This document shows positions 13,758 to 33,068 of a stretch of DNA of 64,000 nt, in pieces. The notes under the pieces were generated by a model, which worked only from the letters and a program-made list of their open reading frames with translations, ran no database searches and was not told the DNA's origin. A program made the translations under genes and the position numbers. The DNA is taken from contig DASZRK010000002.1 of assembly GCA_035549195.1 (NCBI GenBank), forward strand, positions 124,001 to 188,000. The letters run 5' to 3'. The stretch comes from a bacterium. Its GTDB lineage: Bacteria > Oederibacteriota > Muellerivitia > Muellerivitales > Muellerivitaceae. How positions within the stretch are numbered: position 1 is the first letter of the stretch; each line of letters opens with the position of its first letter.

Positions 13758-14600
13758 TCAGGGATCGAAGAACACGCCCAGACCCCAATGGTTGTCCCGC
13801 ACCTCGTAGAACTGGCCGTACTCGCTGTTGCCGTTGTAGTAGGTCAGGGCCAGCCGCACGCCACCCTCGCTCTCCCTTTTTCCTTTCCATTGGAAGCCCC
13901 ATTGGAAATCCTGGTTCGTGACGCTCCCCGCTTCATCCTTGACCTTGAGGTCATAGGTGAAATAACCGCGTCCCGTCGTGCCCAAAAGGAAGTCAAAATA
14001 ACCGGTGTAGAGTTCGGCGCCCAAATGGAAGAAAAAGGGTTTTTCCATGGGCGCCACATGGGGGGAATAACCGGCCCCGCCGTAAAGCCGGACTTGCTCG
14101 GAGGGCGTGAAGGAAGTGATCCACCGGAAACTCTCCCGGGTGTAGATGAAACGCGGGATGGCCAGGAAGAGCTCGTCGCCCAGGTGGGAACTGACATGGG
14201 TATAGTCCAGCCGGTTCGAGAGGACCCCCGATGTTTCGCTGAAGTACATGCCCAGGTACCAATCGCTCGCCCTTTCGGGATAGGTGAAATGGCCGAGGGA
14301 GTCCAGTTCGATGAAACTGGCCCCCCAGATGCCCCAGCCCCAGCGGCTCCCGTCCTTCGGGACCCATTGGAGGAACTCCAGCGTCGGGCCCACGGACCCT
14401 TCGAAGCGGGGATAGGTCAGGTTGGCCAGGATGGCGTTCTGCGGTTCCCGGGGATCACCGATGAGCCGGTCAAAGGCCGGATGGGACGGCAGGAACAAAA
14501 GCCGGTCCTCCTCCGCTTTCAAAACCGACGTCTTTGACCACAGAGGCACAGAAACACAGAAAAGGACCAGGAATATCTTCTTCGTTCTGTTCATCAACAT
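13758..14600 (-). CDS. DUF1207-family secreted/outer-membrane protein, copy 1
   Basis: Function unknown. The 280-residue product has an N-terminal signal peptide, then the DUF1207 pattern: FLPSHPAFDRLIGDPREP, a GWGIWG segment, SSHLGDEL, YTRESF and a C-terminal YYNGNSEYGQFYEVRDNHWG ending in FFDP. Many alternating hydrophobic strands suggest a beta-barrel or beta-rich outer-membrane protein. ATGs at 14600 and 14594 are both possible. Its start codon and hydrophobic signal-peptide core (VLFCVSVPLW) are encoded by an inverted-repeat element of the CACAGAG family. A paralogue lies directly upstream, so this is a tandem duplication. Confidence 0.8.
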   Translation of the reverse strand: MLMNRTKKIFLVLFCVSVPLWSKTSVLKAEEDRLLFLPSHPAFDRLIGDPREPQNAILANLTYPRFEGSVGPTLEFLQWVPKDGSRWGWGIWGASFIELDSLGHFTYPERASDWYLGMYFSETSGVLSNRLDYTHVSSHLGDELFLAIPRFIYTRESFRWITSFTPSEQVRLYGGAGYSPHVAPMEKPFFFHLGAELYTGYFDFLLGTTGRGYFTYDLKVKDEAGSVTNQDFQWGFQWKGKRESEGGVRLALTYYNGNSEYGQFYEVRDNHWGLGVFFDP

Positions 14601-14630
14601 TTTTGAACCGTGCCTCTGTGTCTCTGTGGT
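14537..14630. repeat. CACAGAG-type inverted repeat, family A (copy 1), overlapping a signal-peptide coding region
   Basis: Left arm ACCACAGAG GCACAGAAA (from 14537) and right arm TGCCTCTGTGTCTCTGTGGT (14611-14630) are complementary around a centre of about 45 bases. On the minus strand the centre carries the start codon of the DUF1207 gene and the left arm encodes its signal-peptide core. Confidence 0.8.
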
Positions 14631-14639
14631 GGATCGGGT

Positions 14640-15479
14640 TTATGGATCGAAGAACAATCCGAACCCGAAATGCTCGTCGTGATCCCGGAGGAACTGCCCG
14701 AACTGGGAATTCCCGTTGTAATAGACCAGGGCTAGGCGGATGTCCCGGCTTTCCGCTTCCTTGAACTTCCACAAAAGGCCCACCTGATAGGTCTGGTCCA
14801 GGACCTCGATCTCCTGGATCCAGCGCAGGTCACCCGAGGTGTAGCCCCGCAGGACGGTTCCCCAAAGGTCGGCCGGACCGGTGAAAACCTCGGCTCCCGC
14901 GGAAGCGAACAGGGCCGCTCCATGGGGCGCCATGTTCCACCAGGCACCCAGTTTGGAATAGAAGGTAAGGTCCGGGGAAGGCCGGAAAGCCAGGGCGTAA
15001 TTGAAGTTCTCCCGGCTGAAGAAGATCGGGTTCCGGATCCCTTGCAGGGCATCCCCCAGGTGGGCGCTTCGGTGCTGGAATTCCAAACGGTGGGAAAGGT
15101 CCCCGGAAACCTCGCTCACATACATCCCCACGTTCCAATCCCCCGCTTGCATGGGAAAGGTCGCCCCGTCCTCGTCCAAAAGGATGGTCCCGTCGCCGAA
15201 GACCCCCCAGCCCCATCGAGTACCGTCCTTCGGCAAGTATTGGAGGAACTCGAAGGTGGAGCCCACGGCCCCCTCGAACCGGGTCTTGTCGCCATAGGCG
15301 GTCAGGCCCGTATGGGGCTCCCGCAGATCGCCATATAGGGGCTGAAAAAGGGGAGCGACGGGGAGGAAGGTCCAGGTTTCCTGGGCAAAAGCAGGAACGA
15401 CTATCGAACCACAGAGAACACAGAGTTCACAGAGAAGGCCCCAAGAAAGGAAAAAATTTTTCCGACGACTTTTCCTCAA
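14640..15479 (-). CDS. DUF1207-family secreted/outer-membrane protein, copy 2
   Basis: Function unknown; paralogue of the gene at 13758 with the same length and motif order (FLPVAPLFQPLYGDLREP, RWGWGVFG, SAHLGDAL, FFSRENFNYALAF, YYNGNSQFGQFLRDHDEHFG, FFDP). It begins with a TTG at 15479. The signal peptide has a basic n-region (RKSRRKN), a core that includes LCELCVLCG, and an AFA-QE cleavage site. The Leu-Cys triplets are a literal translation of three 9-base repeat units of the family A element at 15408. Stop at 14640 lies 39 bases before copy 1. Confidence 0.78.
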   Translation of the reverse strand: MRKSRRKNFFLSWGLLCELCVLCGSIVVPAFAQETWTFLPVAPLFQPLYGDLREPHTGLTAYGDKTRFEGAVGSTFEFLQYLPKDGTRWGWGVFGDGTILLDEDGATFPMQAGDWNVGMYVSEVSGDLSHRLEFQHRSAHLGDALQGIRNPIFFSRENFNYALAFRPSPDLTFYSKLGAWWNMAPHGAALFASAGAEVFTGPADLWGTVLRGYTSGDLRWIQEIEVLDQTYQVGLLWKFKEAESRDIRLALVYYNGNSQFGQFLRDHDEHFGFGLFFDP

Positions 15480-15508
15480 ATCTCTGTGTCCTCTGTGCTC
15501 TCTGTGGT
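15408..15508. repeat. CACAGAG-type inverted repeat, family A (copy 2), overlapping a signal-peptide coding region
   Basis: Left arm is three 9-base units: ACCACAGAG, AACACAGAG, TTCACAGAG (15408-15434). The right arm at 15481-15508 is its complement in units of CTCTGTG plus two bases. The centre of about 46 bases contains the TTG start of DUF1207 copy 2. The centre sequence differs from copy 1, while the arms match. Confidence 0.85.
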
Positions 15509-15512
15509 GAGA

Positions 15513-16667
15513 TCAGTTTTTAAGGATCTTTTCGTAGGCTTCGATCATCCGCCGGGCCATGGACCCGGAGGACCAGCGGTCGGCCTCGGCCAGGGTCTCG
15601 GACTTCTTCTGCGCGTACAGGGCCTTGTCCGTGAGCATCCGCAGGACCGCATCGGCAAATTCGTCCTCATTCAGGCCCGTCGTCAGGCCGCCTCGGCCCG
15701 ACGCCATCACGTCCTTGATACCCATCTCGGCCACCGCCACCACGGGGGTCTCGGCGGCCATGGCTTCGGTCACCACCAACCCTTGGGTCTCGGTGATGGA
15801 GGCGAAGACGAAAAGGTCGGAACCGGCATAGCAGTCCCGCCAATCGTCCTTGCTCAGGTAGCCGGCGAAATGCACGTAATCCTGCATCTTCAGGTCCAGG
15901 GCCATCTTCTCCAGATGCTTCTTGGCGGCTCCCTCGCCGGCGATGAGGAACTGGAGGTTCGGGACCTTCGGTTTAAGGCGGTGCACGATCCGCATGAGGA
16001 AGTCGATGTTCTTCTCCTCGGCCACCCGCCCCATGAAGAGGACGACCTGGTCCTCGGGCTTGTAGCCCTTGAGTTTCCGGAACCGTTCCGGGTCCTTGCC
16101 CCGGAACCGCTCCAAGCGGATGCCCGTCGGGATGACCTCCACCGGCTTGGTCACGTCGTAGCTCAAGAGGACGTTCTTCATCTCGCTGGAAGGGGTGATC
16201 AGCAGGTCACAGGCGTTGCAGTAGCGCCGGCTGGCGCTCTTGGCGTACCAGACCCCGAAGGATTTGGGCAGGAACCAGAGATAATGCTCCGTGTAGGCCG
16301 CGAAAAGGGTGTGGTAGGTATGCACCACCTTCGCCCCCGACTTGCGGGCCCACTTCACCGCCGGACCCCCGATGGTGAAGGGGGTCTGGGTGTGCACGAT
16401 ATCGTACTTCTCGTCGATGAACCGTTGGACGAGCTTCTTATCCTTCCAGGGCATTCCCAGGCGGTCCTCGGGGTCGAAGAAAAGATAGAAGGACGGGAAC
16501 CGGAAGACCTTGTAAGGAAGGCTTTCGTCGATATGGTTCGGGAAGGCGGGGGCGTAGATGTGGACCTCGTGCCCCAGCTTGGCGAACTCCTCGGCGAAGA
16601 TCTGGGTGGAGGTGGACACGCCGTTGATACGGGGGAAATAGGTATCGGTGACGAGAGCGATCTTCAA
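15513..16667 (-). CDS. GT4-family glycosyltransferase
   Basis: Retaining GT-B glycosyltransferase, close in layout to diacylglycerol glucosyltransferases and other lipid or exopolysaccharide enzymes; acceptor unknown. The 384-residue product starts with MKIALVTDTYFPRINGVS, typical of the group. It has the GKDPERFRKLKG and VLFMGRVAEEKNIDFL nucleotide-sugar segments and the GT4 E-x7-E region EAMAAETPVVAVAEMG. No signal peptide or membrane span, so cytoplasmic or membrane-peripheral. It lies 33 bases upstream of a family A repeat and DUF1207 copy 2; a functional link is unproven. Confidence 0.85.
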   Translation of the reverse strand: MKIALVTDTYFPRINGVSTSTQIFAEEFAKLGHEVHIYAPAFPNHIDESLPYKVFRFPSFYLFFDPEDRLGMPWKDKKLVQRFIDEKYDIVHTQTPFTIGGPAVKWARKSGAKVVHTYHTLFAAYTEHYLWFLPKSFGVWYAKSASRRYCNACDLLITPSSEMKNVLLSYDVTKPVEVIPTGIRLERFRGKDPERFRKLKGYKPEDQVVLFMGRVAEEKNIDFLMRIVHRLKPKVPNLQFLIAGEGAAKKHLEKMALDLKMQDYVHFAGYLSKDDWRDCYAGSDLFVFASITETQGLVVTEAMAAETPVVAVAEMGIKDVMASGRGGLTTGLNEDEFADAVLRMLTDKALYAQKKSETLAEADRWSSGSMARRMIEAYEKILKN

Positions 16668-16690: not shown

Positions 16691-16785
16691 AACCACAGAG
16701 GACACAGAGTTCCCAGAGTTAAAACCAAATCCCCCTCAAGACTTTCCAAAAAATCCTTCTCTGTGCCCTCTGTGCTCTCTGTGGT
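16691..16785. repeat. CACAGAG-type inverted repeat, family A (copy 3)
   Basis: Fills the gap between proS and the GT4 gene. Left arm ACCACAGAG GACACAGAG TTCCCAGAG and right arm made of CTCTGTG words are complementary around a 35-base centre. Here no coding start lies in the element. Confidence 0.85.
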
Positions 16786-16794
16786 GAATAGCCT

Positions 16795-18525
16795 TTACGG
16801 AGTGCAGAGCTTCCATTCTTCGGCGGCGAATTCCTTCACCTTGTCCATGACCTGGGCCACGGGCACCTTGGCGACGTCCTTCTCCCGGCGGCGCTTCACC
16901 TCCAGGACCCCTTCCTTCAGGCCCTTGGAACCCACCCGGACCGACAGCGGGATGCCCAGGAGGTCCGCGTCCTTGAACTTGAACCCGGCCGTGGCCTCGG
17001 TGCGGTCATCATAAAGGACCTCGTAACCGGCCTTGGTCAAGTCCTCGTAACATTGGTCGGCCGCCTTGGCCACTTCCGGTTCGGCGGGATTCAAGAGCAG
17101 GAGGTGGACCTGGTAAGGGGCGATGGAGATCGGCCAGAGGATGCCGTCGGCGTCATTGTGCTGTTCGATGGCGGCCCCGACGGTGCGGGTGACCCCGATC
17201 CCGTAGCAGCCCATCACCGCCTCATGGTCCTTGCCGTCCTCGCCCAGATAGACGCATTTCATCGATTTGGAATATTTGGTGCCCAACTTGAAGGTCTGGC
17301 CCACCTCGATGCCGCGCCCGGTCTTCAAGGGCTTACCGCATTTGGGGCAACCGTCCCCGGTCACGACGCTTCGAAAATCGTTGTACCAGGGCGCGGCGCA
17401 ATCCCGGCCGATCTCCACGTGGATGAGATGCTTGTCCTTGGCCAAGGCCCCGGTCACGTAATCGTGGCCGTCCTTCAAGGCGTTGTCGGCCAATATCTTG
17501 ACGCCCTTCAAGCCCACCGGCCCCGCGAACCCGACGGGGGCCCCGGTCACTTCCATCACCTTTTCCGCCGAAGCCAGGACCAGTTCCGTGGCGCCCAAGG
17601 CGTTCTGGACCTTCACCTCGTTGACCTCGTGGTCCCCACGGACCAGGACCGCAACGGGTTTCCCATCAGCGAGGAAGATCAGGGTCTTGATGAATTGGGA
17701 GGGAGGCAGCTTCAGCAAGGCTCCCACATCCTCGACCGTGTATTTTCCGGGAGTATCGACGGCGGCGTAAGCTTCGGAGGTGGCTTGGGCGACGGCGGCA
17801 GGGGTGGGCACGCCCGTCGCTTTCTCCATGTTGGCCGCGTAGTCGCACGACGAACACATGGCCACCGCCGCCTCGCCCGTCTCGGCCAACACCATGAACT
17901 CATGGGTGAAGGACCCGCCGATGAGCCCCGAATCGGCCTCCACGGGCGCGAAGGTCAATCCGCAGCGCTTGAAGATGCGCTTGTAGGCCTCGAACATGAT
18001 CCAGTAGGTCTTGTCGCAGGCCTCGTCGTTGACGTCGAAGGAATAACCGTCCTTCATGAGGAATTCGCGGCTGCGCATGACGCCGAAACGGGGGCGCACC
18101 TCGTCGCGGAACTTGGTGGCGATCTGGAAGAGGTTCAGGGGGAGCTGTTTGTAGCTCTTGAGCTCGCGGCGGACCAGGTCGGTGATGACCTCCTCATGGG
18201 TGGGCCCGAGGGCGTAATCGTGCTCATGCCGGTCCTTCACCCGCATCAGTTCCTTGCCGTATTTCTGCCAGCGGCCGGTCTCTTTCCAGAGCTCGGCGGG
18301 GGTGAGGATCGGCATGAGGACTTCCTGGGCGCTTCCCCGCTCCATTTCCTCGCGGATGATGCCCATGACCTTGAGGAGGGCCCGTTGGCCCAGGGGCAGG
18401 TATTCGTAAATGCCCGAGGCGACCTTGCGCATGAGGCCGGCCCGTAGCATCAGCTTGTGGGACGGGATCTCCGCCTCGCCGGGAGTTTCTTTGACGGTGG
18501 GGATGAGGGCTTTGGAGACGCGCAT
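16795..18525 (-). CDS. proS: Prolyl-tRNA synthetase (bacterial type with editing insertion)
   Basis: Charges tRNA-Pro. The 576-residue product has the class II motifs: SHKLMLRAGLMRKVASGIYEYLPLG with motif 1, GPTHEEVITDLVRRELKSYKQLP around motif 2, and IGVTRTVGAAIEQH near motif 3. Between motifs 2 and 3 lies the YbaK-like editing insertion (VLVRGDHEVNEVKVQNALG). The C-terminal anticodon-binding domain ends near the stop. The in-frame extension upstream of 18525 is translated terminator sequence; AAGGA lies 8 bases before the chosen ATG. Confidence 0.96.
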   Translation of the reverse strand: MRVSKALIPTVKETPGEAEIPSHKLMLRAGLMRKVASGIYEYLPLGQRALLKVMGIIREEMERGSAQEVLMPILTPAELWKETGRWQKYGKELMRVKDRHEHDYALGPTHEEVITDLVRRELKSYKQLPLNLFQIATKFRDEVRPRFGVMRSREFLMKDGYSFDVNDEACDKTYWIMFEAYKRIFKRCGLTFAPVEADSGLIGGSFTHEFMVLAETGEAAVAMCSSCDYAANMEKATGVPTPAAVAQATSEAYAAVDTPGKYTVEDVGALLKLPPSQFIKTLIFLADGKPVAVLVRGDHEVNEVKVQNALGATELVLASAEKVMEVTGAPVGFAGPVGLKGVKILADNALKDGHDYVTGALAKDKHLIHVEIGRDCAAPWYNDFRSVVTGDGCPKCGKPLKTGRGIEVGQTFKLGTKYSKSMKCVYLGEDGKDHEAVMGCYGIGVTRTVGAAIEQHNDADGILWPISIAPYQVHLLLLNPAEPEVAKAADQCYEDLTKAGYEVLYDDRTEATAGFKFKDADLLGIPLSVRVGSKGLKEGVLEVKRRREKDVAKVPVAQVMDKVKEFAAEEWKLCTP

Positions 18526-32986: not shown

Positions 32987-33068
32987 ACCACGGAGGGCAC
33001 GGAGATCACGGAGAAAAAGATCCCGATTTTTCCGCCTCACTTCTGTGTCCTTCGCGAACCCTTCGGTT
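32987..33068. repeat. Family A inverted repeat variant (CACGGAG) between dnaK and grpE
   Basis: Left arm is three perfect 9-base units: ACCACGGAG, GGCACGGAG, ATCACGGAG (32987-33013). The right arm (CTTCTGTGTCCTTCGCG) is degenerate and mixes family A and family B words, which links the two families. The left arm starts 26 bases upstream of the dnaK ATG; the right arm runs up to the 3' end of grpE. Confidence 0.65.

Follow-up and report, generated by a model that had tools for sequence, protein, structure and literature searches.

How do two neighboring genes come to start inside dispersed inverted repeats, with repeat DNA read in frame as part of their predicted signal peptides? The question is posed by a tandem gene pair in the window, the entire 64-kb stretch of DNA analyzed here, which is part of a 3.2 Mb genome in 80 contigs (G000) and contains no match to Rfam. 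Same-family relatives were recovered through a protein search; most of them are titled candidate division FCPU426 MAGs, and no same-genus genome was among the relatives searched (G001 and onward). The relevant features of the window are the following.

13758-14600, minus strand: DUF1207 gene b, 280 aa, ATG start, N-terminus MLMNRTKKIFLVLFCVSVPLWSKTSVLKA
14537-14557, minus strand: downstream (translated) arm of element b, 8-base units, read F-C-V-S-V-P-L-W
14610-14630, minus strand: upstream arm of element b, directly past the stop codon of gene a
14640-15479, minus strand: DUF1207 gene a, 279 aa, TTG start in the element, N-terminus MRKSRRKNFFLSWGLLCELCVLCGSIVVPAFA/QETW
15408-15434, minus strand: downstream (translated) arm of element a, three 9-base units giving LCE-LCV-LCG
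15435-15481, minus strand: center of element a, locus-specific, with the TTG start and the basic n-region, not common to other elements
15482-15508, minus strand: upstream arm of element a, beginning a few bases past the glycosyltransferase stop codon
15513-16667, minus strand: glycosyltransferase-like gene upstream of the DUF1207 pair, order kept in relatives
16692-16785, no strand assigned: third element, arms 16692-16718 and 16759-16785, non-coding
32988-33013, plus strand: single degenerate arm of CACGGAG units, elsewhere in the window

Both products are DUF1207 proteins (PF06727; E-values of 4.5e-19 for gene a and 6.4e-15 for gene b), and both genes start between inverted arms (15408-15508 and 14537-14630), as the sequence-only reading of this DNA had proposed. 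Gene a begins with the TTG at position 15479, between arms of 33 nt that are 85% complementary (15403-15435 and 15481-15513), and gene b with an ATG at position 14600 or 14594, between arms of 21 nt that are 86% complementary (14537-14557 and 14610-14630). The same reading had assigned the hydrophobic core to the arm as read on the minus strand; this holds for both genes, with the cores LLCELCVLCG in gene a and LFCVSVPLW in gene b. In gene a, the downstream arm reads CTC TGT GAA CTC TGT GTT CTC TGT GGT, so that three 9-base units do indeed encode LCE-LCV-LCG in frame. The suggestion that the length of the units preserves the reading frame is valid for gene a (9 = 3x3) and fails for gene b, whose arms consist of 8-base units. 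Otherwise, the N-terminus of gene a is laid out in an ordinary manner, with a basic start, a hydrophobic core and a cleavage-like AFA/QE. Since no in-frame ATG, GTG or TTG occurs for about 30 codons past the element, and none before the mature domain, gene a has no start downstream of the element from which its translation could begin. The third element lies in the gap between the start of the glycosyltransferase gene and a proline-tRNA-ligase-like gene that stops near 16795; it is non-coding, as previously described.

Arms of this type are abundant and dispersed. The window contains 12 matches to the arm pattern, a number reached by none of 100 shuffles of the window, and the entire genome contains 119 (59 + 60) within two mismatches, compared with none for the reversed control. 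The arms form inward-facing pairs of about 80-145 bp, and 29 of 33 elements, classed by hand from gene calls, lie between co-directional genes. At a typical site, no more than about 20 nt separate the upstream stop codon from the first arm, and 10-40 nt lie between the second arm and the next start. Sister families with other units (CACCAAG, CACGAAG, CGCCAAG and CACGGAG, with an 8- or 9-base period) are present in the same and in related genomes, and a GTCATTGCGAGGAG repeat family occurs alongside these short-unit families. The end of a GTCATTGCGAGGAG repeat (CGCAATGACA) also apparently provides the ATG of an RlmN-like radical SAM gene (G007, L291, 139-1263, minus strand) and of an alpha/beta hydrolase gene (G005, L186, 1649-2692, minus strand). 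The centers of the elements are unrelated between copies, as a 12-mer is common to 0 of 378 pairs in G000 and to 3 of 561 in G005. Consequently, the repeated unit is the arm alone, and the start codon and n-region are locus DNA. The center thus holds the start codon and the n-region, as had been claimed, but it does not supply them as repeat DNA; it is the arm, and not the whole element, that entered the signal peptide. Homogenization of the arms within an element was considered and rejected, given that arm likeness in G000 is 0.68 both within the same element and between different elements.

What the arms offer to a reading frame depends on the side from which they are entered. The strand of the downstream arm has a mean hydropathy of +1.55, +1.38 and +0.58 in its three frames, and that of the upstream arm is polar (-1.43, -2.46 and -2.80). 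Because an inverted repeat is identical from both sides, this polar-then-hydrophobic order is independent of gene direction. In 26-29% of frames, the last 30 nt of an element lack a stop codon and read hydrophobic, versus 2-3% in random windows. Much of this hydrophobicity is base composition, since shuffled arms still average +0.93. The cores of the repeat-containing signal peptides, judged here by hydropathy alone, reach values of 2.3-3.2, similar to those of repeat-free ones (2.2-2.8). Two broader propositions had to be abandoned. Not every element is a ready-made signal peptide, as a complete signal-like reading frame is found in just 5 of 56 element orientations in G000 and 7 of 68 in G005 (about 9-10%), with random windows at 2-4%; nor are all three arm frames ideal cores, as the third carries a stop codon in 39% of arms and has the aforementioned hydropathy of 0.58. 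None of the translated short-unit arms that survived our checks resides in a protein predicted to be non-exported. However, the same crude hydropathy measure finds a hydrophobic N-terminal window in about 38% of the G000 genes sampled; single coincidences are therefore not rare, and the exported-only tally is weak when taken alone. Recurrence at orthologous genes is the stronger argument.

Such recurrence is evident at the DUF1207 locus. The order glycosyltransferase, DUF1207a, DUF1207b is conserved among the relatives, and the mature part of the direct counterparts is 41-56% identical to that of gene a (36% in G008). In contrast, the signal-peptide region of DUF1207a differs wholly between relatives and overlaps whichever repeat is present: CACAGAG in G000 and G007 (degenerate in G006), CACCAAG/CACAAAG in G001 and G005 (...SLSFLVPLVPLWLIG... 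in G005), CGCCAAG in G003, and the GTCATTGCGAGGAG repeat (MRLLRRNRAAIRGPLLAMTAFL...) in G002. The DUF1207a starts of G004 and G008 are devoid of a repeat. At DUF1207b, G000, G001 and G005 carry arms of 8-base units, and the arms of G002, G006 and G007 are degenerate. Repeat-free ordinary signal peptides are present in G004, in G008 and in DUF1207 paralogues encoded elsewhere in G001 and G003, and no arm-like stems were detected near the start of DUF1207 proteins outside FCPU426. None of the repeat-free orthologues examined has a Leu-Cys core, the presence of which would have spoken against a contribution of the repeat.

A scan for elements at genes that are obliged to start upstream of the arm end retrieved one gene in G000, for a second M16 peptidase, and two in G005, for a SpoIID/TPR protein and a protein of 651 aa. 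All seven genomes share an ATGA at which the ATG of the M16 gene overlaps the stop codon of the gene before it, and repeats follow this ATGA in frame in G000, G001, G002 and G005. In G001 and G005, the whole element is read in frame, ending in ...MIKSLLCVLCVLCGSNVFA/KAPAVPE and ...MIQSLLCVLCVLCGSNAFA/KAPAV, respectively. The G000 gene is open through two elements, so that over 100 residues would precede the core if translation does not begin at an internal start, and that of G002 is open through 8-base arms and an apparent other repeat. Only the downstream arm is present in G006, no arm was seen in G003, and G004 has an ordinary signal peptide (MKLKKLVLALLTLSVLSPALA/KPPVVPE). The M16 element of G000 (L077, 7859-8251) is partly tandem-duplicated, with both copies open from the ATGA (about 130 extra codons), and the G002 extension (L312) includes a PHPTLSRKGRG stretch (CCTCACCCTACCCTCTCCCGCAAGGGG) resembling a further dispersed repeat family in frame. 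The SpoIID signal peptide overlaps arms of different families in G005, G001, G002 and G000, and degenerate ones in G007 and G003; in G001, G002 and G005, the upstream arm precedes a terminator-like hairpin. At this locus (L324, L325, L326), the arms enclose the next start codon as well as the upstream gene's terminator-like hairpin, and the arm sequence is genome-specific. The gene for the 651-aa protein, which has neither a Pfam match nor a homologue in the other genomes searched, starts behind a good ribosome-binding sequence, and an entire element comes after that start. A less convincing additional case is a lipoprotein-like frame of 216 aa in G000 (L062, 6966-7613). Other candidates were dropped: L373 is a shadow frame over an ispG-like gene, L086 and L087 are probable shadow frames, and L085 and L162 have native starts past the element.

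Four gene positions (DUF1207a, DUF1207b, the second M16 peptidase and SpoIID/TPR) hence have signal peptides with differing repeats, or with none (G004), in the relatives. The identity of the repeats, their in-frame reading, the conserved context of the starts and the exchange or lack of repeats at the same loci can be read directly from these genomes. They support a recruitment of repeat DNA that extends beyond what the sequence-only reading could show, as it recurs at four gene positions across the family and involves different repeat families. Probably, repeat DNA was inserted into existing predicted signal peptides, partly replacing them, and was tolerated there; export was not created from nothing. 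Arms of 8- or 9-base units (CACAGAG, CACCAAG, CGCCAAG and variants), mostly reside between co-directional genes. At several genes for exported proteins, however, they bracket the start codon as a pair or sit wholly past the start, so that the downstream arm is read in frame within the core of the predicted signal peptide. The arms may arrive by mobilization, possibly via GxxExxY nuclease-family proteins, and the insertions would be kept by selective tolerance, given that a signal peptide accepts almost any hydrophobic core. Insertion would be tolerated because the downstream arm usually reads hydrophobic (mainly Leu, Cys, Val, Ser and Trp; the upstream arm is polar or charged), and the arm-encoded peptides would presumably mediate export. 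The Glu residue in the core of gene a, its TTG start, the long stretch ahead of the core in the G000 M16 reading and the small share of element orientations with a complete signal-like frame count against this explanation. As the backbone of the family tree, including the branch point of G004, is not fixed, the number of independent insertions is uncertain; nor does the tree offer a choice between re-insertion and conversion of arms.

Alternatively, an RNA hairpin around the start that controls the translation of operon genes might be what is selected, with the hydrophobic reading as a by-product. Two element RNAs are very stable, that of element a at -56.7 kcal/mol (z -6.6) and another at -39.7 kcal/mol (z -4.5), and the arms bracket the start in DUF1207a and DUF1207b as well as a terminator-like hairpin plus start in SpoIID. 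However, the downstream arm continues to read hydrophobic and in frame at different loci and in different repeat families, and several arms are degenerate or single (G006), a state in which the hairpin would break and the peptide is nevertheless kept. We regard this explanation as unlikely, although it may coexist with insertion into existing signal peptides. It is still less probable that ordinary intergenic repeats overlap starts by accident and that the start calls are too long, the true starts lying elsewhere. Most elements do end 10-40 nt before the true start, naive start calls of several genes wrongly run into the element, and the shadow frame in L373 also resembled a case. Against this stand the lack of a later start in gene a, the ATGA start of the M16 gene, which precedes the element and is conserved whether or not a relative carries one, and the recurrence of the overlap at the same genes in several genomes. 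That the elements create new exported proteins by adding signal peptides to cytoplasmic ones is disfavored and hardly credible: the arms give hydrophobic cores in most frames, but every repeat-free orthologue already has a signal peptide (DUF1207, M16b and SpoIID in G004; the paralogues in G001 and G003). Of the earlier proposal that a repeat was recruited to create or replace signal peptides, replacement or extension consequently stands, and creation does not fit.

Insertion of repeat DNA into existing signal peptides raises the question of how arms move. GxxExxY genes (TIGR04256; PF13366, PDDEXK_3) lie between inverted arms in most readable loci, and these arms belong to the same or similar short-unit families as those of gene-less elements. 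Their loci typically have inverted-repeat scores of 13-36; a score of at least 13 is attained at most GxxExxY loci read versus 14 of 236 other genes drawn from element-rich regions, and the very high score at L116 may be a contig-end effect. Arm-flanked GxxExxY genes are found, among others, at L083 (1535-1986, G000:C51), L093, L097, L098, L102, L103, L104, L113 and L117. Judging from their placement between the arms, GxxExxY genes are a plausible mobile, possibly autonomous, partner of the arms; our search of the literature on this family found no described mobile element. Y1 transposase genes are rare (one match in G000 and three in G005), and none of them is framed by these arms; one (L375, G005:C173) is framed by a different inverted repeat (GTGAACAAAGGGGTCAGGCCACCATTATCCA). 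One could go further and envisage the arms flanking GxxExxY genes as a widespread, undescribed mobile class that donates signal-like N-termini independently of orientation and drives signal-peptide turnover across phyla, a notion that we entertain tentatively and with more doubt than confidence.

The closest precedent is the RU-2/YPAL repeat of Yersinia, which is part of the predicted signal peptide of YPO1552, a protein whose homologues in other genera have unrelated signal peptides (Delihas, 2007, PMC2759123; PMC2229807). Here, too, a signal-like peptide at the N-terminus is encoded in part by a dispersed repeat, and homologues (G004, G008 and the paralogues) have signal peptides unrelated to it. 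In contrast to the one main predicted case of RU-2, four gene positions and several repeat families are involved, the start overlap is conserved, the in-frame insertion is visible against repeat-free relatives, and what is translated is an arm built from short units in tandem. The present case is thus a stronger, comparative variant of the same kind. Rickettsia palindromic elements, palindromic repeats of about 100-150 bp, are likewise translated in frame within protein genes (PMC10969869; PMC2229807). They occur in many unrelated genes with a conserved peptide of their own, whereas here translation has been seen at signal-peptide ends only, and the element centers are not conserved. With REPINs and BIMEs, REP doublets associated with RAYT (PMC3116915), the elements share inverted short arms, a variable spacer, an intergenic location and hairpin formation; unlike in REPINs, the arms are tandem 8-9 base units, and GxxExxY instead of Y1 genes are arm-flanked. 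As in MITEs, terminal inverted repeats are common to all copies, but a common internal sequence is lacking.

Taken together, these fixed loci, with their conserved start context, form a comparative series in which mobile DNA has been absorbed into apparently working export signals. The series makes directly testable both the turnover of signal peptides and the way in which selfish repeats come to occupy harmless sites in coding DNA, and it suggests GxxExxY proteins as candidate movers of a type of repeat that is common. For the bacteria of this family, it would mean that export signals can be rewritten by mobile DNA while the protein itself survives.
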